A program made the position numbers and the translations under genes. From IMG/VR virus record IMGVR_UViG_3300032245_000134, positions 1 to 37,318 of that record: a stretch of 37,318 bases of DNA; one strand, written 5' to 3'. The notes beneath the pieces are model-generated. The model saw only the letters and a program-made list of their open reading frames with translations. It ran no database searches and had not been told where the DNA came from. Shown here piece after piece: positions 10,996 through 31,193 of this stretch. Origin of the DNA: a virus. Numbering within the stretch: the first letter of the stretch is position 1; every line of letters begins with the position of its first letter.

Positions 10996-11970
10996 ATGCC
11001 AGTACCAATGACGCTAGAGCAACTAGACGTTTATGGTAGTTTGGAAAATGTACCATATAGTTTAGATAATACATTTTATGACAATGGCACTACAGTATGT
11101 GGTCCATGGACTTTAGACCAGTTAGACGCATTTGGTAGTCTAGATAATTTAGCTATTTCATTAGATAGCACATTATGGACTACTAATGCTTGTATTAATT
11201 TATCTGATGCTCTTATTACTTCAGATGCAGCAGTTGTTGCAGACGCTACAAGAATAAGAACAAGTAGTGGTGCAGTAGATGCTAACGCTAACGTAGTAGC
11301 AAGTGGTACAAGAATTGCTACAGGTGATGCAGTTATCACAGCAAATGCACAAGTAGAAGCAAACGTCACTAGAATTACATTTAGTAATGCTGATATTACA
11401 GGTAACGCTACTGTAGTTGCTAATGGCGTTAAAATTGTAGTAGGTAATGCAGATATAAATGCTTTAGCTACTGTAGATGCTACAGGATACGCTATATATT
11501 CATCTAGTGGTTCTATTACAGCTACTGCTACAGTATTAGCAGATGGTATTAGAGTCCAATTAGGTGAGGCTTCTATTACAGGTGATGCAACAGTATCATC
11601 TTCTGCAATACGAATTAGAACAAGTGAAGCAGATATAACAGGAACTGCTACAGTCTCAGCAATTGGTGGTGTATTGTATTCAGGTGCTGCAGATATAACA
11701 GCAGAAGCATTATTATCATGTAGTCCAAATGCAATATTCTACGGTATTGGTAATATTTCAGCATTAGCTACCATTGTAGCTTCAGGTACTATATTAGGAG
11801 AAGAATGGTCTCCAGTCACTCCAGGCTCAGAGTCATGGACAGGTGTAACACCAAGTAGTGATACTTGGACAGTAATAACAGCAGGTAGTAGTTCATGGAC
11901 TGATATAGGTTTTGGTTCAGATACATGGACAGCATCAAGTTCAAGTAACGATACATGGTCACAAATTTAA
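10996..11970 (+). CDS. Repetitive beta-solenoid fibre-like protein
   Basis: A 324-residue protein with three repeat zones. Residues 5 to about 65 hold two copies of a TLxQLDxxGSLxN...SLD motif. The middle (about 75-255) is a run of roughly nine units of 20-24 residues built on GxADITAxATVxAxGxRI, as in beta-solenoid fibres. The last 55 residues hold about five copies of SWT / DTW-type units (GSESWTGVTP, SSDTWTVITA, GSSSWTDIGF). No membrane segment. The N-terminal motif also occurs in the nozzle protein at 18092-19513, suggesting a common docking element. Likely a tail fibre or appendage. Confidence 0.75.
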   Translation: MPVPMTLEQLDVYGSLENVPYSLDNTFYDNGTTVCGPWTLDQLDAFGSLDNLAISLDSTLWTTNACINLSDALITSDAAVVADATRIRTSSGAVDANANVVASGTRIATGDAVITANAQVEANVTRITFSNADITGNATVVANGVKIVVGNADINALATVDATGYAIYSSSGSITATATVLADGIRVQLGEASITGDATVSSSAIRIRTSEADITGTATVSAIGGVLYSGAADITAEALLSCSPNAIFYGIGNISALATIVASGTILGEEWSPVTPGSESWTGVTPSSDTWTVITAGSSSWTDIGFGSDTWTASSSSNDTWSQI

Positions 11971-11984
11971 TTACGAGGTAAAAA

Positions 11985-12788
11985 ATGGCAAAGAATAAAA
12001 TCAGTCAGTACGACTCAACAAGTGCTGGCGCAAACTTAAATACAGATATTGCAGGTATTAATATTGATGAGGGTTGCGCACCTTCAGGTATTAACAATGC
12101 TATTAGAACACTCATGGCGCAAATTAGAGACTTACAGTCTGGAGTTAGTGGTGACTCTATTCCTGTAACAGCAGGTGGTACTGGTTCTACTACAACAGCT
12201 TCAGCTAGGTCAGCTTTAGGTCTTGCTATTGGTACAGACGTATTAGCTCCTCCTTCAGGCACAGCTATTTTAAAAGCTAACTCTGGTGGTGCTTTAGCAA
12301 ACGCTTCTGCAGGTACAGACTATGTAGCTCCAGCAACAGCAACTACATTCACAGCTACTCAAACATTTACAGGTTCAACAACAGCTATCGCTGCAGTATT
12401 CCAAGATGCAGCAGAAGTCGCAACAGTATCAGCTACAGCAGCTACAGGTACTATCAACTATGATGCAACTTCACAGTCTGTGTTATACTACACAACAAAC
12501 GCAAGTGCTAACTGGACAGTAAACTTTAGAGGTAATGGCACAACATCTTTAAATACTCTCATGTCAACAGGTCAAGCTATTACATTAGTATTCCTAGTAT
12601 CACAAGGTGCTACAGCTTACTATAACAATGCAGTCACTATTGACGGTACATCTGTAACACCTAAATATCAAGGTGGCACAGCATGGTCAAGTGGTAATGC
12701 TTCAGGAATAGACGCTTACTCTTATACTATCGTCAAGACAGGTTCAGCAACATACACAGTATTCGCAGCTCAAACTCAATTTAAGTAG
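11985..12788 (+). CDS. Tail fibre protein
   Basis: A 267-residue protein. The N-terminus KISQYDSTSAGANLNTDIAG and GINIDEGCAPSGINNAIRTL is a frequent phage fibre-base motif. A VTAGGTGSTTTASARSALGL segment, common in trimeric fibre shafts, comes next. The C-terminal half is Ser/Thr/Ala-rich beta structure ending VKTGSATYTVFAAQTQFK. It probably forms the proximal part of the host-recognition fibre, with the next genes as the distal adhesin. Confidence 0.8.
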   Translation: MAKNKISQYDSTSAGANLNTDIAGINIDEGCAPSGINNAIRTLMAQIRDLQSGVSGDSIPVTAGGTGSTTTASARSALGLAIGTDVLAPPSGTAILKANSGGALANASAGTDYVAPATATTFTATQTFTGSTTAIAAVFQDAAEVATVSATAATGTINYDATSQSVLYYTTNASANWTVNFRGNGTTSLNTLMSTGQAITLVFLVSQGATAYYNNAVTIDGTSVTPKYQGGTAWSSGNASGIDAYSYTIVKTGSATYTVFAAQTQFK

Positions 12789-12797
12789 GAATTAACA

Positions 12798-15707
12798 ATG
12801 TCATTATTGTCAAGACTAGCCGTACAAGCCGCAAGAGCTTATGGTATTCTATCTGCCGCAGATAAAACAAAAGTAGCAGCATCTTATCTTGTTGTTGCTG
12901 GTGGTGGCGGAGGTGGTGGTGGATTAACTTCTACAACAATTGGCGGTGCTGGTGGAGCTGGTGGATTATTATCATCTACAATTACATTATCAACTCTTAA
13001 TACTTATTCTATTACAGTAGGTGCAGGTGGTAATGGGTCTTTAGGTACAGCAGTACCTACATCAGGCTCTAATTCAATATTATCTGGAACAGGAATTACT
13101 ACAGTAACATCTATAGGTGGTGGTAATGGTGCAAATTACACTTCAGCTAATGGTGGTTCTGGAGGTTCAGGTGGTGGTAGCCAAGTTGGTGGAGCTGGAG
13201 GTACAGGAACTGCTGGACAAGGTAATAATGGTGGTACTGGGGTATCTGGAGCAACTGGAGGCGGTGGTGGTGCTAATGCGGTAGGTGGTAATGCTGCTAC
13301 AAATACTGGTGGAACAGGTGGCTCAGGTACTGCATCATCTATATCAGGTAGTTCAGTTACTTATGCTGGTGGTGGTGGCGGTTCAACTTATAATATTGGT
13401 AGTGGTGGAGGTGCTGGTGGCTCTGGAGGTGGTGGAGCAGGCGGTTCAGGTGCAGCAGGTGTTGCAAATGGAACTTCAGGAACTGCAAATACTGGTGGTG
13501 GTGGCGGTGGAGCTGGAACTTATACTGCAAATTCATCTGGAACTACAGGCGGTTCAGGCGGTTCAGGAGTAGTCATCATATCTTACGCATCTGCTACACC
13601 TAAATTCGTAGGTGGTACTCTTACTACTTCAGGTGGTAACCAAATACACACATTCACATCTTCAGGCACATTAAGCCCTCTTACACCTGTAACAGCTAGT
13701 TATTTAGTAGTGGCTGGTGGAGGTGGAGGTGGTGTCTTTTATGGTGGTGGTGGTGGTGCAGGTGGCTATCAAACTTCATCTACTACACTTTATTCAGGTG
13801 CAACTTATGTTGTGACTGTAGGTGCAGGTGGTGCTATTTCTTCAGGAACTGGTAGAGGTTCAAGTGGCGGAAATTCAGTTTTAAGTGGTACAGGTTTAAC
13901 AACAGTAACATCTACTGGCGGTGGAGGTGGCGGTGGTTCTTCAGGTGCTCCTCAAAGTGGGGGTAATGGTGGTTCAGGTGGCGGTGGCGGTGGTTCAGGT
14001 AGTGGTGGAGCTGGTGGTACTGGAATATCAGGACAAGGTTTTGCAGGAGGTACAACAGCAACTGGCTATTCAGGCGGTGGAGGTGGTGCTTCTGCTGTAG
14101 GTGGAAATGCTGTAGCTTCTACAAATGCTGGGGTAGGTGGTGCAGGTTCTGCTTCTTCAATATCAGGAACTTCTACAACTTATGCTGGTGGTGGCGGAGG
14201 TAACGGAGCATTAGGAGGTGCTGGAGGTGGTGGCGGACAAGGTGCTCCAAATGGAGTTTCAAATACTGGTGGTGGAGGTCAAGGGGATGCTGGCTCTGGT
14301 GGCTCTGGTGTAGTTATCATCTCATACGCTGGTTCACAAGTATTTAACGGTGGTCTAGTCACATCATCAGGTGGTAATACTATCCACACATTTACAGCTA
14401 CAGGTGCTTTAACACCACTTACTAATAACCTAAACAATTCTTTAAGGTTTAGAAATAGTGCTAGTGCTTATCTATCAAGAACACCAACTTTAGCTAGTTC
14501 AAGAACTACATGGACATGGAGTGGTTGGGTAAAAAGAGGTAGATTAACTACAGGTTATATTCAAGGACTATTTGCTGGTGTTGATAGTTCAGCAAATACA
14601 ATTGTTACAGGCTTTAGGTTTACAGCTACAGATGCTTTAGAATTAATTAGCTATAATGCAGGATATACAGGTCAAATAGTTACTACTCAATTATTTAGAG
14701 ACCCATCTGCTTGGTATCATTTGGTTGCTGTTTATGATACAACTCAAGCAACTGCAGCTAATAGAACTAGAATTTATGTTAATGGACAACAAGTAACAGC
14801 ATTTTCAACTGCTACATACCCTTCACAAAATTATAATGGCTTTGTAAATACAACAGGTCTTCATGTAAATGGAGCTGCATTATACAGTGGAGTTATTGAG
14901 CATTTAGATGGTTATTTAGCAGATGTAAACTTCATTGACGGTCAAGCACTAGAACCATATTACTTCGGTAATAATGACGCTAACGGTGTATGGAAACCAG
15001 TTAAATACACAGGTATGTATGGCACTAACGGTTTCTACCTAACATTTGGTAACACAACATCTACCACAACATTAGGCTACGATAGTTCAGGTAACGGTAA
15101 CAATTGGACAACTAACAACATTAGCTTAACAGCAGGCACAACTTATGATGCTATGCTAGATGTTCCTACTAATACAAGTGCGACTGTGGCTAATTATGCT
15201 ACTTTAAACCCTTTAATACCTGTAACTACAACTACTGTAACTAATGGTAATTTAAGTTTAAACTCTTATAATCCTAGCGGTTCTGTATTTGGAACTATTG
15301 GTGTTTCTAGTGGCAAATGGTATTTTGAAATGGTTGCATATACAGACGCTATGAGTGGTATTTCAGGCACTCCAAATGGAGGTGCTTTTCCAGGTGCTGC
15401 ATCAAATGCTTACACTTGGGACTCAGCAGGTGCAACTAAATATAGTAATGGAAGTGGTGCAAGTTATGGTTCTGCTACATCTAATGGCGATATTGTTGGT
15501 GTAGCATTTGACCTTGATAGCGGTTCTATTACATTCTATAAAAACAATGTAAGTCAAGGAGTAGCATATACATTTACTCCTAGCGGAACTTATTTCCCAG
15601 CATTTAGAAATGGTTCTTCCACTAATACATCAGTAAACTTTGGACAACGACCATTCTCTTACACACCTCCTACAGGCTATGTAGCACTAAACACATATAA
15701 CCTATAA
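12798..15707 (+). CDS. Large Gly-rich adhesin with LamG and SPRY domains (5' piece of a split fibre)
   Basis: A 969-residue protein. Two related glycine-rich modules, at about residues 29-290 and 301-541, each open with YLVVAGGGGGGG, end with GGSGVVIISYA and are followed by a GGN-IHTFT motif, so they arose by duplication. Residues 549 to about 725 form a LamG/concanavalin-like lectin domain (TWTWSGWVKRG, IYVNGQQVTAF, LDGYLADVNFIDGQALEPYY). Residues about 838-958 form a SPRY domain (SSGKWYFEMVAY, VGVAFDLDSGSITFYKNN). Glycine-rich modules and lectin domains fit receptor binding. The protein ends YVALNTYNL, where relatives I know continue into the domain now encoded at 16207-17232. Confidence 0.88.
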   Translation: MSLLSRLAVQAARAYGILSAADKTKVAASYLVVAGGGGGGGGLTSTTIGGAGGAGGLLSSTITLSTLNTYSITVGAGGNGSLGTAVPTSGSNSILSGTGITTVTSIGGGNGANYTSANGGSGGSGGGSQVGGAGGTGTAGQGNNGGTGVSGATGGGGGANAVGGNAATNTGGTGGSGTASSISGSSVTYAGGGGGSTYNIGSGGGAGGSGGGGAGGSGAAGVANGTSGTANTGGGGGGAGTYTANSSGTTGGSGGSGVVIISYASATPKFVGGTLTTSGGNQIHTFTSSGTLSPLTPVTASYLVVAGGGGGGVFYGGGGGAGGYQTSSTTLYSGATYVVTVGAGGAISSGTGRGSSGGNSVLSGTGLTTVTSTGGGGGGGSSGAPQSGGNGGSGGGGGGSGSGGAGGTGISGQGFAGGTTATGYSGGGGGASAVGGNAVASTNAGVGGAGSASSISGTSTTYAGGGGGNGALGGAGGGGGQGAPNGVSNTGGGGQGDAGSGGSGVVIISYAGSQVFNGGLVTSSGGNTIHTFTATGALTPLTNNLNNSLRFRNSASAYLSRTPTLASSRTTWTWSGWVKRGRLTTGYIQGLFAGVDSSANTIVTGFRFTATDALELISYNAGYTGQIVTTQLFRDPSAWYHLVAVYDTTQATAANRTRIYVNGQQVTAFSTATYPSQNYNGFVNTTGLHVNGAALYSGVIEHLDGYLADVNFIDGQALEPYYFGNNDANGVWKPVKYTGMYGTNGFYLTFGNTTSTTTLGYDSSGNGNNWTTNNISLTAGTTYDAMLDVPTNTSATVANYATLNPLIPVTTTTVTNGNLSLNSYNPSGSVFGTIGVSSGKWYFEMVAYTDAMSGISGTPNGGAFPGAASNAYTWDSAGATKYSNGSGASYGSATSNGDIVGVAFDLDSGSITFYKNNVSQGVAYTFTPSGTYFPAFRNGSSTNTSVNFGQRPFSYTPPTGYVALNTYNL

Positions 15708-16219
15708 TGAAAAGACTAGACTTAATAGGACATAAATTTACTAAACTAACTGTCACAGAGTTTGCTGGCATGGATAATGCTAAACAAAGTATGTGGAAAG
15801 TTAAATGTGAATGTGGAACAGAGAAAACTGTAAAAGGTTATGCTTTAAGAAATGGCAATACAAAGTCATGTGGATGCCTTCTTGTAGAACAAGGAAGAAA
15901 AGCAGGTTTAAGTCATGGCACTCACAGAATGAGCAATACACGCACATATAAAAGTTGGGACGCTATGAAGGCTAGATGTTTAAACTATAAAAGCACAAGC
16001 TATCTATTTTATGGTGCATTAGGTATTAAAATTTGTGATAAATGGATAACATTTGAAGGCTTCTATGAAGATATGGGAGATAGACCTGAAGGAACAAGTT
16101 TGGATAGAATTAATCCATTTGGTGATTATAATAAAGAAAATTGTAGGTGGGCTGATAAAAAAACTCAACTACACAACAGTCGTAAAAATTATATTAAGGA
16201 AGTAATATGCCGACCATAA
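15707..16219 (+). CDS. HNH/AP2-type homing endonuclease
   Basis: A 170-residue protein. The N-terminal zinc-type part has WKVKCECGTEKTV and TKSCGCLL. The middle is TRTYKSWDAMKARC, followed by YGALGIKICDKW, and the HNH-like core is SLDRINPFGDYNKENCRWA, all hallmarks of free-standing phage homing endonucleases. These cut intron- or insert-less alleles and copy themselves by repair. The start overlaps the fibre stop (TAATG) and the end overlaps the next fibre ORF, so the insertion is about 500 bp and almost entirely coding. It appears to interrupt the fibre gene. Confidence 0.87.
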   Translation: MKRLDLIGHKFTKLTVTEFAGMDNAKQSMWKVKCECGTEKTVKGYALRNGNTKSCGCLLVEQGRKAGLSHGTHRMSNTRTYKSWDAMKARCLNYKSTSYLFYGALGIKICDKWITFEGFYEDMGDRPEGTSLDRINPFGDYNKENCRWADKKTQLHNSRKNYIKEVICRP

Positions 16220-17232
16220 ATAAAGGCAGTGACTATTTTGGTGTATTAACATACACAGGTGATGGAGCTGCAAGTAAAACTGTTGTAGATACAAGTGCTG
16301 TTACCTTTCAGCCTGACTTTGTATGGATAAAAAGTAGAAGTGGTGCTACAGACCATGCTTTATATGACGCTGTTCGTGGAACTACTAAAGACTTGGTATC
16401 TAACTCTACCGCAGCAGAAACAACACAATCTACAGGATTAACTAGCTTTGTTAATGGTGGCTTTACTATAGGTAATTTAGCTAAACTAAATACAAGTGGT
16501 GCTACTTATACAGCATGGTGTTGGAAAGCAAACGGTGCTGGTTCATCTAACACTAATGGCTCTATTACATCTACTGTATCTGTAAATACAACTGCTGGGT
16601 TTAGTATTGTGACTTATACAGGAAATGGAACTGCTGGAGCTACAGTTGGACATGGACTAGGGGTTGCTCCTAGTATGGTAATAATTAAGAATAGAACTGC
16701 CGCAGCTCAAAATTGGCTTGTATGGCATAAATCTATTTCACAAGCAATTCAAACATCATCTGTAATAACATTAAATGGTTATACTGGAAGTACATTATTA
16801 AATGGAACAGGTGCTTCATTTACATACGCTTTTGACTCACAAATTAATGGCTCTACTAATTCAATGTTAGCTTATTGCTGGGCAGAAATAGCAGGCTTTA
16901 GTAAATTTGGTTCTTACACAGGTAATGGTTCTACTGATGGTGTATTTGTATATACAGGATTTAGACCTAAATATATAATGGTTAAAAGAACAACTGGAAC
17001 TGTATATGCTTGGTGTGTATGGGACTCTGCTCGTGAAACATATAACGTAGAAAATGCAATTTTAACTGCAAATACATCTAATGCAGAAAATACAGGAACT
17101 TTATATGTAGACTTTTTAAGTAATGGTTTTAAATTTAGAAGTTATAGTAATGGTTCTGAAAATGCTAGTGGTGAGCCATATATTTATGCCGCTTTTGCAG
17201 AGTCACCATTTAAGATTAGTAATAGTAGATGA
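16207..17232 (+). CDS. C-terminal fibre domain (DUF7483-type), 3' piece of a split fibre
   Basis: A 341-residue protein with an AAGGA site six to seven bases before ATG 16207. It repeats a YTGDG/YTGNG unit (VLTYTGDGAASKTVVD, IVTYTGNGTAGATVGH, FGSYTGNGSTDGVFVY) and has FQPDFVWIKSRSGATDHALY, typical of domains that directly follow LamG/SPRY modules in phage fibres. The first codons (PTINKGSDYF) read naturally after the YNL end of the gene at 12798-15707, so the two were probably one protein before the HNH gene entered. Whether the separate pieces reassemble is unknown. Confidence 0.82.
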   Translation: MPTINKGSDYFGVLTYTGDGAASKTVVDTSAVTFQPDFVWIKSRSGATDHALYDAVRGTTKDLVSNSTAAETTQSTGLTSFVNGGFTIGNLAKLNTSGATYTAWCWKANGAGSSNTNGSITSTVSVNTTAGFSIVTYTGNGTAGATVGHGLGVAPSMVIIKNRTAAAQNWLVWHKSISQAIQTSSVITLNGYTGSTLLNGTGASFTYAFDSQINGSTNSMLAYCWAEIAGFSKFGSYTGNGSTDGVFVYTGFRPKYIMVKRTTGTVYAWCVWDSARETYNVENAILTANTSNAENTGTLYVDFLSNGFKFRSYSNGSENASGEPYIYAAFAESPFKISNSR

Positions 17233-17717
17233 GATTTAGAAAGCCACGCAAAGATTTAACTAATTATGAAAATGACCATTGTGTAGCATTAAGGTCAGAA
17301 AAAGCTTGTTTTTGGGTTATTAAATGTAAATATTGTGGTGGTGAACACGAACAAACATCTCGTGAAATTCAAAACAATGCAAAAACAAGACAATGTGAAA
17401 CATTTAAACCACATAATTGGTCAGGTCTTGAAAGAGAAGATAATATCATGCGTAAACAATATGGTATATCAACTCAACAATTTGAAGAATTACTAGAGTT
17501 TCAAGGTGGTGGATGTGCTATATGTGCTAAACCTATTGAAAATATTAGACGTAGAATGAATATAGACCATGACCATGAAACAAATAAGGTTAGAGGTATA
17601 TTATGCACAGGATGCAACACAGGTATTGGACATTTAGGTGATAACATAGAAGGGTTAAAAAGGGCTTTGTATTATTTAGAAAATACACCTTTTGATGAAT
17701 ATTTAAACAAGGAGTAA
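17229..17717 (+). CDS. Endonuclease VII-like HNH endonuclease
   Basis: A 162-residue protein. The C-terminal half carries CAICAKPIENIRRRMNIDHDHE and VRGILCTGCNTGIGHLGDN, the zinc-binding and His/Asn-rich core of the recombination endonuclease VII family; the N-terminal half has KCKYCGGEHE as an extra zinc-type motif. T4 gp49 resolves branched DNA, but short free-standing members of this family commonly act as mobile endonucleases. Here it lies directly behind the fibre piece (ATGA overlap) rather than with replication genes, so a mobile role is favoured. Confidence 0.85.
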   Translation: MRFRKPRKDLTNYENDHCVALRSEKACFWVIKCKYCGGEHEQTSREIQNNAKTRQCETFKPHNWSGLEREDNIMRKQYGISTQQFEELLEFQGGGCAICAKPIENIRRRMNIDHDHETNKVRGILCTGCNTGIGHLGDNIEGLKRALYYLENTPFDEYLNKE

Positions 17718-30160: not shown

Positions 30161-30380
30161 GAGCCTCCGTTAATTTCTTACTATCGTATCTTGACAATCC
30201 TTTATATTCTTCTACAGGTTCACCAGGATACAATGGTGTTATCTTAATATGGTGCGTTGTATTCTTTAAGTCGTTTAAATATGATAATTGGTTAGGATGA
30301 AATGACCATAAATAAGACTTCTTTAGGTCACCTGATTTAACGTCATACTCTTGATAAAGCCATGCAACTGGTTCTTTCAT
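30147..30380 (-). CDS. Hypothetical protein with ITPLY motif (77 aa)
   Basis: A 77-residue protein beginning KEPVAWLYQEYDVKSGDLKK and containing HIKITPLYPGEPVEEYKGLS. The VAWL...PLY frame recurs in short phage proteins of unknown function, often in early operons. No membrane segment. Its start overlaps the stop of the wall-hydrolase gene at 30380. Confidence 0.7.
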   Translation of the reverse strand: MKEPVAWLYQEYDVKSGDLKKSYLWSFHPNQLSYLNDLKNTTHHIKITPLYPGEPVEEYKGLSRYDSKKLTEAHGGL

Positions 30381-30769
30381 TAATAAAATACCATCCTTCC
30401 TATTTTCTTGTTAGGTTTCATTTCCCAAATATATCTCATATCTACACTATCGTCATGGAAGTATAAACTATTTCCTACAGGGTTTGCATGCTTTTTAAAG
30501 AACAATGTATCTACTACAAGTAATTCTGTTTTTAGAAATACCTCTTGGTCTGGTTTTTCATGCTTACCACTTACATAGTTTTCTACTCCTATGAATTGAC
30601 CACGAGCATAAACTACTTCGCAAGCATCTTTACCAAATTTTTTAGACCTTACTCTATTCATAATGACATGAATAACACCTAACTTTTCTTCTAGTGATTG
30701 CATGTTTGCTTCTGTGTAAACTGCTGTTGCTATGCAATGTACATCATGTTCTGAAATATGTATATCCAT
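30380..30769 (-). CDS. SleB-like cell wall hydrolase
   Basis: A 129-residue protein. IATAVYTEANMQSLEEKLGV and HVIMNRVRSKKFG, followed by VYARGQFIGV and NSLYFHDD, match the Hydrolase_2/SleB family with the catalytic Glu in VYTEAN. The family acts on peptidoglycan as a lytic transglycosylase or amidase. There is no signal peptide, and it is expressed in the leftward operon, not with the GH24 endolysin. AAGGTAG is the ribosome site on the minus strand. Role (entry, lysis timing or turnover) uncertain. Confidence 0.82.
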   Translation of the reverse strand: MDIHISEHDVHCIATAVYTEANMQSLEEKLGVIHVIMNRVRSKKFGKDACEVVYARGQFIGVENYVSGKHEKPDQEVFLKTELLVVDTLFFKKHANPVGNSLYFHDDSVDMRYIWEMKPNKKIGRMVFY

Positions 30770-30816
30770 TATCTACCTTTAATGATTATCTTGTGTCTAG
30801 CAAACCCACACAAGCG

Positions 30817-30848
30817 TATAATTCTATTATAAATCTAAAAGAAAGGAG
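30817..30848 (+). promoter_or_regulatory. pqqA -10 box and ribosome site
   Basis: TATAAT at 30817-30822 is a perfect -10 hexamer. The best -35 candidate, TTGTGT at 30791-30796, is 20 bp away, so the promoter is weak or relies on another factor. AAAGGAG at 30842-30848 lies seven bases before ATG 30856, one of the best ribosome sites in the window. This gives pqqA its own signals on the strand opposite to its neighbours. Confidence 0.55.
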
Positions 30849-30855
30849 AACTGCC

Positions 30856-30927
30856 ATGTGGACAACACCAGCTGCTACAGAAATGCGTTTTGGCTTTGAA
30901 GTAACCATGTACGTAATGAACAAATAA
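30856..30927 (+). CDS. pqqA: PQQ precursor peptide PqqA
   Basis: A 23-residue peptide: MWTTPAATEMRF, then GFEVTMY at residues 13-19, then four residues. PqqA peptides share the MW-x-x-P opening and the E-V-T-x-Y core, whose Glu and Tyr (here E15 and Y19) are cross-linked by PqqE to become pyrroloquinoline quinone, the cofactor of methanol and other dehydrogenases. The length equals bacterial PqqA. No pqqB, C, D or E is in this window, so host enzymes would have to process it. It is the only plus-strand gene inside the leftward operon, between the SSB-like and SleB-like genes. A longer frame from 30694 is discounted because the ribosome site fixes ATG 30856. The region looks less AT-rich than its surroundings, suggesting transfer from a host. 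Confidence 0.93.
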   Translation: MWTTPAATEMRFGFEVTMYVMNK

Positions 30928-30940
30928 TTGTTATGCTTAT

Positions 30941-30968
30941 GGGGATGCTCCTAGAAAGGAACATCCTC
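30941..30968. promoter_or_regulatory. Hairpin behind pqqA
   Basis: GGGGATG (30941-30947) pairs with CATCCTC (30962-30968), one wobble, and TCCT (30949-30952) with AGGA (30957-30960) around an AGAA loop, beginning 13 bases after the pqqA stop. It has no T-run, so is not a classical terminator. It also forms the 3' end of the SSB-like gene on the other strand. It may end or protect the pqqA transcript. Confidence 0.5.
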
Positions 30969-31193
30969 ATCTGCACCTTCAACAGCAGGTTTACTTCTTA
31001 CTTCAGCTTTAGGTTCTTTTAACTGAACTGTGCCTGAAATAAATTTACCATTAGCACTTTCTCTAATCCAACCACTAATTCTAAACTCAATACCATCTAC
31101 ATTCATATTACCTGTATAGTTTGGTCGTTTAGGATTATCACCCTGGTCATTCTTAAATAATGTAAACGTGTTTGTGTTGTCATACTGTGCCAT
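30951..31193 (-). CDS. SSB-like protein
   Basis: An 80-residue protein. FTLFKNDQGDNPKRPNYTGN and FRISGWIRESANGKFISGTV resemble short phage proteins of OB-fold type, and the C-terminus GADEDVPF imitates the acidic DDDIPF tip that SSB uses to recruit repair proteins. It is shorter than full SSB, so this is a tentative assignment. It sits directly downstream of the exonuclease and annealing genes, which supports a recombination role. Confidence 0.65.
   Translation of the reverse strand: MAQYDNTNTFTLFKNDQGDNPKRPNYTGNMNVDGIEFRISGWIRESANGKFISGTVQLKEPKAEVRSKPAVEGADEDVPF

Follow-up and report, generated by a model that had tools for sequence, protein, structure and literature searches.

The closest described relatives of the locus studied here are the pqqA genes of methylotrophic bacteria, which encode the precursor peptide of PQQ. 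Methylotroph hosts hold 3-12 pqqA copies beside a single pqqBCDE set, and solitary copies are common (PMC4109929); in the methanotroph OB3b, transcript levels are 11,857-13,927 for pqqA but 142-372 for the remaining pqq genes, a difference of about 30-90 times, and that pqqA, too, had escaped gene prediction (PMC3615186). According to work cited in PMC9851590, 70-80% of purified PqqA was converted to PQQ in cell-free extract. In our own sample, all 80 of 80 Methylophilaceae genomes carry pqqA, with 1-12 copies each and a mean of 4.4. On these observations, hosts already act as though precursor were in limiting supply.

Viral copies of the gene have been reported as well. The Lake Baikal viral population VP_266 encodes PqqA beside methanol dehydrogenase, and for VP_139/VP_266 the viral pqqA and viral methanol dehydrogenase were proposed to raise methanol oxidation (PMC7678222); pqqA also stands among listed viral genes from a reservoir (PMC13188868). 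An earlier note on the DNA analyzed here, made from the sequence alone, knew of no established description, and these two papers correct it. The Lake Baikal case differs from ours in concerning one population of a large, T4-like phage known from metagenomes, described without a survey or an operator, and the pqqA of cultured phages went unremarked. What is new here is the near-general presence of pqqA in methylophages, cultured ones included, together with its match to the host, its selection signature, its autonomous placement and an upstream operator common to host PQQ genes.

The window, meaning the whole stretch of 37,318 nucleotides that we analyzed (IMG/VR record IMGVR_UViG_3300032245_000134), contains a single PqqA copy by six-frame search of the record. 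Its open reading frame of 23 codons plus TAA lies exactly at 30856-30927 on the + strand and encodes the peptide MWTTPAATEMRFGFEVTMYVMNK, which scores 40.3 bits against the Pfam PqqA model PF08042 (E 3e-10; curated cut-off 21.1 bits) and 38.8 bits against the NCBIfam equivalog TIGR02107 (E 5.6e-10; cut-off 20 bits), and which matches letter for letter the PqqA found in many Methylophilaceae, among them Methylotenera, Methylopumilus and OM43. The peptide is not covered by any PHROGs model. Glu15 and Tyr19 form the E-x-x-x-Y core whose residues are cross-linked to make PQQ, and from the identity to host PqqA we infer cross-linking by PqqE/PqqD and conversion to PQQ. A ribosome binding site, AAAGGAG (30842-30848, +), ends 7 nt before the ATG, and an AAGGAG-like site precedes nearly all phage pqqA copies. 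An alternative in-frame GTG would give a 77-aa ORF at 30694-30927; because ribosome binding site, homology and relatives all favor the ATG at 30856, we take the latter as the start. The earlier note had proposed just such a 23-residue PqqA frame with a strong ribosome site, and the proposal is confirmed: the ORF encodes a PqqA of the bacterial type. Where that reading fell short was in overlooking the shared upstream operator element and the hosts' many pqqA copies.

The surrounding genome is that of a genuine tailed phage, with TerL, portal, SU10-type major capsid and other structural proteins, lysozyme, a DnaB-type helicase and a recombination module of SSB, YqaJ exonuclease and Sak annealing protein; the host probably belongs to the Methylophilaceae. 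pqqA sits between a divergent cell wall hydrolase gene (Hydrolase_2, endolysin-like; 30380-30769, -) and the convergent gene for the ssDNA-binding protein SSB (30951-31193, -) that starts the SSB/YqaJ/Sak module, on the strand opposite to both. The same placement recurs elsewhere: pqqA is antisense to both neighbors in 56 of 125 viral contigs, as against 5.5% of control ORFs, and the median upstream gap is about 104 nt for phage pqqA versus 2 nt for controls. Phage pqqA is thus its own transcription unit. A predicted stem-loop immediately 3' of the gene (30939-30970, +), overlapping the end of the SSB gene, is possibly a 3' hairpin of pqqA and has no T-run on the + strand; a terminator scan of window positions 30600-31100 found none. 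Elsewhere in the window, two ORFs between tail-fibre-like genes (15707-16219 and 17229-17717) have by eye the look of HNH-type endonucleases and are possibly homing endonucleases.

How widely is the gene distributed among phages? A strict degenerate DNA pattern matches at least 119 IMG/VR contigs. By tblastn against 50,697 phage records, pqqA is carried by nine Methylophilales phage records (P19250A, MEP301, Venkman, MEP401, MEP402 and four Melnitz records), which are all those found in the searched collection, and by the spring-water phage MW202481, a relative of the window phage; the 50,697 records yielded no further true phage pqqA. The named Methylophilales phages HIM624-A, phiMB624-A, MEP431-434, Venkman EXVC038S, MG-MTP1 and RSA-MFP1 were absent from this collection and stand outside the nine. 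Two matches labeled 'Acinetobacter phage MD-2021a' (CAKLQF020000010.1 and CAKLQH020000055.1) were rejected as bacterial chromosome contigs, with fur and ppk upstream and a full pqqABCDE. The authors who described the pqqA-bearing isolates assign them to unrelated phage types (PMC10580990, PMC9004378), and we counted lineages from such published classifications, gene-sharing single linkage having merged most loci at low thresholds. Among IMG/VR relatives of the window by TerL (80% identity or more), pqqA is present in all 5 contigs that reach 35 kb and in 7 of the 9 that reach 25 kb. The SAR11 phage HTVC008M, placed in Melnitz's family by the Melnitz authors (PMC9004378), has no pqqA.

None of the cultured Methylophilales records has pqqA annotated. 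Spurious antisense hypothetical ORFs cover the true gene in MW202481 (L003:2067-2195, -) and Melnitz (L008:4461-4556, -). The earlier note had anticipated both this wide, unannotated occurrence and a methylotroph host range; the contigs and records above substantiate the former, and the presence of the gene in Methylophilales phages, together with the identity of the peptide to Methylophilaceae PqqA, the latter. Venkman (L005) and MW202481 (L003) share an 85-nt block over pqqA and its ribosome binding site that is 90.6% identical, with otherwise no megablast match in 7 kb, which suggests a recent exchange of a bare pqqA cassette.

Phage pqqA is under strong purifying selection. In a second degenerate scan, whose pattern put no constraint on the Glu and Tyr codons as a guard against circular evidence, Glu15 and Tyr19 were kept in 126 of 126 matches (108 distinct DNA sequences), bearing out the conservation that the earlier note had made a test of its proposal. 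Over all codons of 129 distinct phage ORFs, dN/dS is 0.085 (dN 0.099, dS 1.17, so that synonymous sites are near saturation), and it is 0.15 when the codons that the search pattern had fixed are set aside. The presence of the gene in at least 119 viral contigs, the complete retention of the two residues and the strength of selection exclude a chance ORF.

Phage and host pqqA genes also have an upstream element in common. De novo motif searches run separately on phages and hosts recovered what proved to be the same dyad, CTCATGAAAATCATGAG around -125 in hosts and TTAATGATTTTC(N)TTA around -88 in phages. With a threshold score of 7, a matrix derived solely from hosts detects the element before 63% of the pqqA copies in phages and before 0.4% of 488 phage genes of other kinds (p about 1e-44), an enrichment of about 150-fold, and likewise in 11 of 14 loci of the TerL set that the pqqA pattern had not selected; about one third of phage copies have no recognizable element. 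The window holds a degenerate operator-like copy, TTAATGATTATCTTGTG (30779-30795, +), with a weak score of 4.9, on a scale where 5 is reached by only 1.4% of other phage genes, and the corresponding values for the close relatives L361 and L363 are 10.9 and 7.1. A likely -10 hexamer, TATAAT (30817-30822, +), starts 36 nt downstream of the operator's AATGATT core. Most often, operator and TATAAT are 36-37 nt apart in phages and 59-60 nt apart in hosts. A generic sigma-70 promoter scan of window positions 30600-31100 gave nothing above chance and no pair at TATAAT, and the mean best-promoter score of phage pqqA leaders is only slightly above that of shuffles; the operator and the TATAAT enrichment derive from anchored analysis. 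Leaders spanning about -50 to -12 from the ATG fold more stably than shuffles (mean z -1.32 in phages and -0.99 in hosts, compared with about -0.2 and -0.1 immediately upstream), so that the 5' leader possibly forms an mRNA-stabilizing hairpin; the folds gave no conserved shape.

In hosts, intergenic near-exact copies of the operator lie upstream of eleven pqqA genes in five genomes. One host genome (G094; L410/L415, about 1500-1526) has head-to-head overlapping CATGAAAATCCTGAG copies on both strands, 63-74 nt upstream of a TonB receptor that matches the PQQ transporter PqqU/YncD, whose structure is solved (9c4o, E 1.8e-82), which suggests that PQQ import and synthesis may be co-regulated in methylotrophs; PMC12124388 suggests that the two are generally regulated independently. 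In the small number of xoxF loci inspected, from hosts and phages, no strong site lies upstream, so that the element looks specific to PQQ genes rather than to methanol dehydrogenase. A non-exhaustive literature search found no earlier description of the operator. We lean towards an undescribed methylotroph PQQ regulon, in which the CTCATGAAAATCATGAG operator would control host pqqA and in some hosts pqqU, the shortened version in methylophages would make viral pqqA answer the host's PQQ/methanol signal, and PqqA would be a general hallmark of Methylophilaceae phages that had gone unnoticed.

The partners that PqqA would need are not encoded with it. As the earlier note had observed for the window, pqqB-E do not accompany phage pqqA: tblastn found them beside viral pqqA in 0 of 138 loci, and none of 37 viral records with pqqA has a PqqE above the cut-off. 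The gene is solitary in these phage loci, outside any pqqABCDE operon, a likeness to the solitary pqqA of Methylophilaceae, which is often away from pqqBCDE. Methanol dehydrogenase is absent from most pqqA phages, the window phage included. A host XoxF query nevertheless matched nine viral contigs, 7 of which also carry pqqA. The two largest, IMGVR_UViG_3300025120_009955 (72 kb; L380, L399) and IMGVR_UViG_3300042891_000377 (104 kb; L381, L401), were judged viral from head-maturation proteases of phage type, present in both, and from ribonucleotide reductase, confirmed by family search in the 72-kb contig; the Gp23 major capsid family matched none of the XoxF contigs and gave no match in controls either. 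The former also encodes a formate-dehydrogenase-like protein of 946 aa, and the latter phosphate-binding PstS-like, porin-like and peroxiredoxin genes. In both, XoxF lies near curli-like repeat proteins, and in the 104-kb contig pqqA adjoins a small HNH-like gene.

Taken together with the host-identical peptide, these data make it likely that the ORF works as an auxiliary metabolic gene in a tailed phage of Methylophilaceae, supplying PqqA, from a host-type promoter, to the host's PqqB-E for PQQ synthesis. It lies in a real phage genome, occurs in sequenced isolates and is identical to a host metabolic gene, as an auxiliary metabolic gene should be. Phage-made PqqA would pass through host PqqE/PqqD, PqqB, PqqC and peptidases to yield PQQ, which serves the XoxF/MxaF methanol dehydrogenases as cofactor, and so would sustain methanol oxidation and ATP supply. 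Why carry the precursor alone? Each PQQ uses up one molecule of PqqA, with PqqB-E acting as catalysts, so the PqqA step should need the most synthesis and fail first if host mRNA decays, which would make a single 72-bp gene the cheapest way to keep methanol oxidation going. The host-type promoter would be read by host RNA polymerase and a host PQQ regulator, probably early; since the operator is common to host pqqA (and one pqqU), control of phage pqqA by a host PQQ-related regulator is probable. We infer expression during infection, processing by host enzymes and a gain in PQQ or, as the earlier note proposed, in energy flow, as well as the identity and sign of the regulator. Counting against this reading are the weak operator copy in the window (4.9), the blank generic promoter and terminator scans, the lack of methanol dehydrogenase in most pqqA phages and of the element at about a third of phage copies; moreover, as hosts already hold several pqqA copies, an added phage copy may change little.

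Other readings of the same gene deserve weighing. It might be a mere passenger, captured from a host and spread without benefit through recombination around the single-strand annealing module: at least 56 of 148 viral loci have a gene for SSB, an exonuclease or an annealing protein within 2.5 kb of pqqA, and the 85-nt block at 90.6% identity joins two otherwise unmatched phages. A passenger would hardly show a dN/dS of 0.085, near-fixation in the window lineage, presence in several unrelated phage types and absence from a SAR11 phage relative, and we give this account little credence. Small phage peptides do inhibit host enzymes, and a phage without pqqB-E could use PqqA as a decoy that occupies host PqqE/PqqD, lowers or redirects PQQ synthesis and stops host respiration. 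Yet the phage sequence does not differ from that of a productive substrate in the host, both cross-linked residues are invariant, and a perfect substrate gains a decoy nothing; phage pqqA also travels with phage XoxF, a PQQ user, so that this is a very improbable use of the peptide.

Two further readings place the benefit elsewhere. Extra PQQ might close the PqqU receptor to competing phages, or feed other quinoproteins; in E. coli, a phage that uses PqqU is blocked by PQQ (PMC12124388), and in one Methylophilaceae genome the pqqA-type operator also precedes pqqU. Against this, phage pqqA tracks XoxF across viral contigs and methylophages are not known to use PqqU, and we rate such a role as just as improbable as the decoy. 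The roughly 150-fold enrichment of the element at pqqA over other phage genes would also suit titration, with the many phage operator copies soaking up the host PQQ regulator and the DNA mattering more than the peptide, but the coding frame is under strong selection and one third of copies keep the ORF without the element, which leaves titration the least probable of the readings considered. Metabolic supply by a phage-encoded precursor thus remains our preferred explanation.

The viral gene resembles bacterial PqqA (PF08042/TIGR02107, solitary Methylophilaceae copies) in its identical peptide, its small ORF led by a ribosome binding site and its upstream operator-like element, and differs in lying on a phage genome and in the shorter operator spacing given above. 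A parallel is cyanophage psbA, an auxiliary gene for the turnover-prone D1 protein subunit: in both cases the phage would sustain host energy metabolism through the part used fastest, but psbA encodes a protein subunit, whereas the product of pqqA is a substrate consumed to make a cofactor. Auxiliary genes are usually regarded as encoding enzymes or protein subunits; with pqqA, a phage would provide the starting material for a cofactor of ribosomal origin, leaving the enzymes to its host. So tiny a gene escaped annotation in the cultured methylophages examined here, and surveys of metabolism in marine and freshwater viruses of methylotrophs have accordingly passed it over. The cultured phage-host pairs make its role testable at once, the gene offers a sequence marker for predicting Methylophilaceae hosts, and the operator common to host pqqA, one host pqqU and phage pqqA provides a direct route to the methylotroph PQQ regulator. 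pqqA may be the most general metabolic gene of methylotroph viruses.
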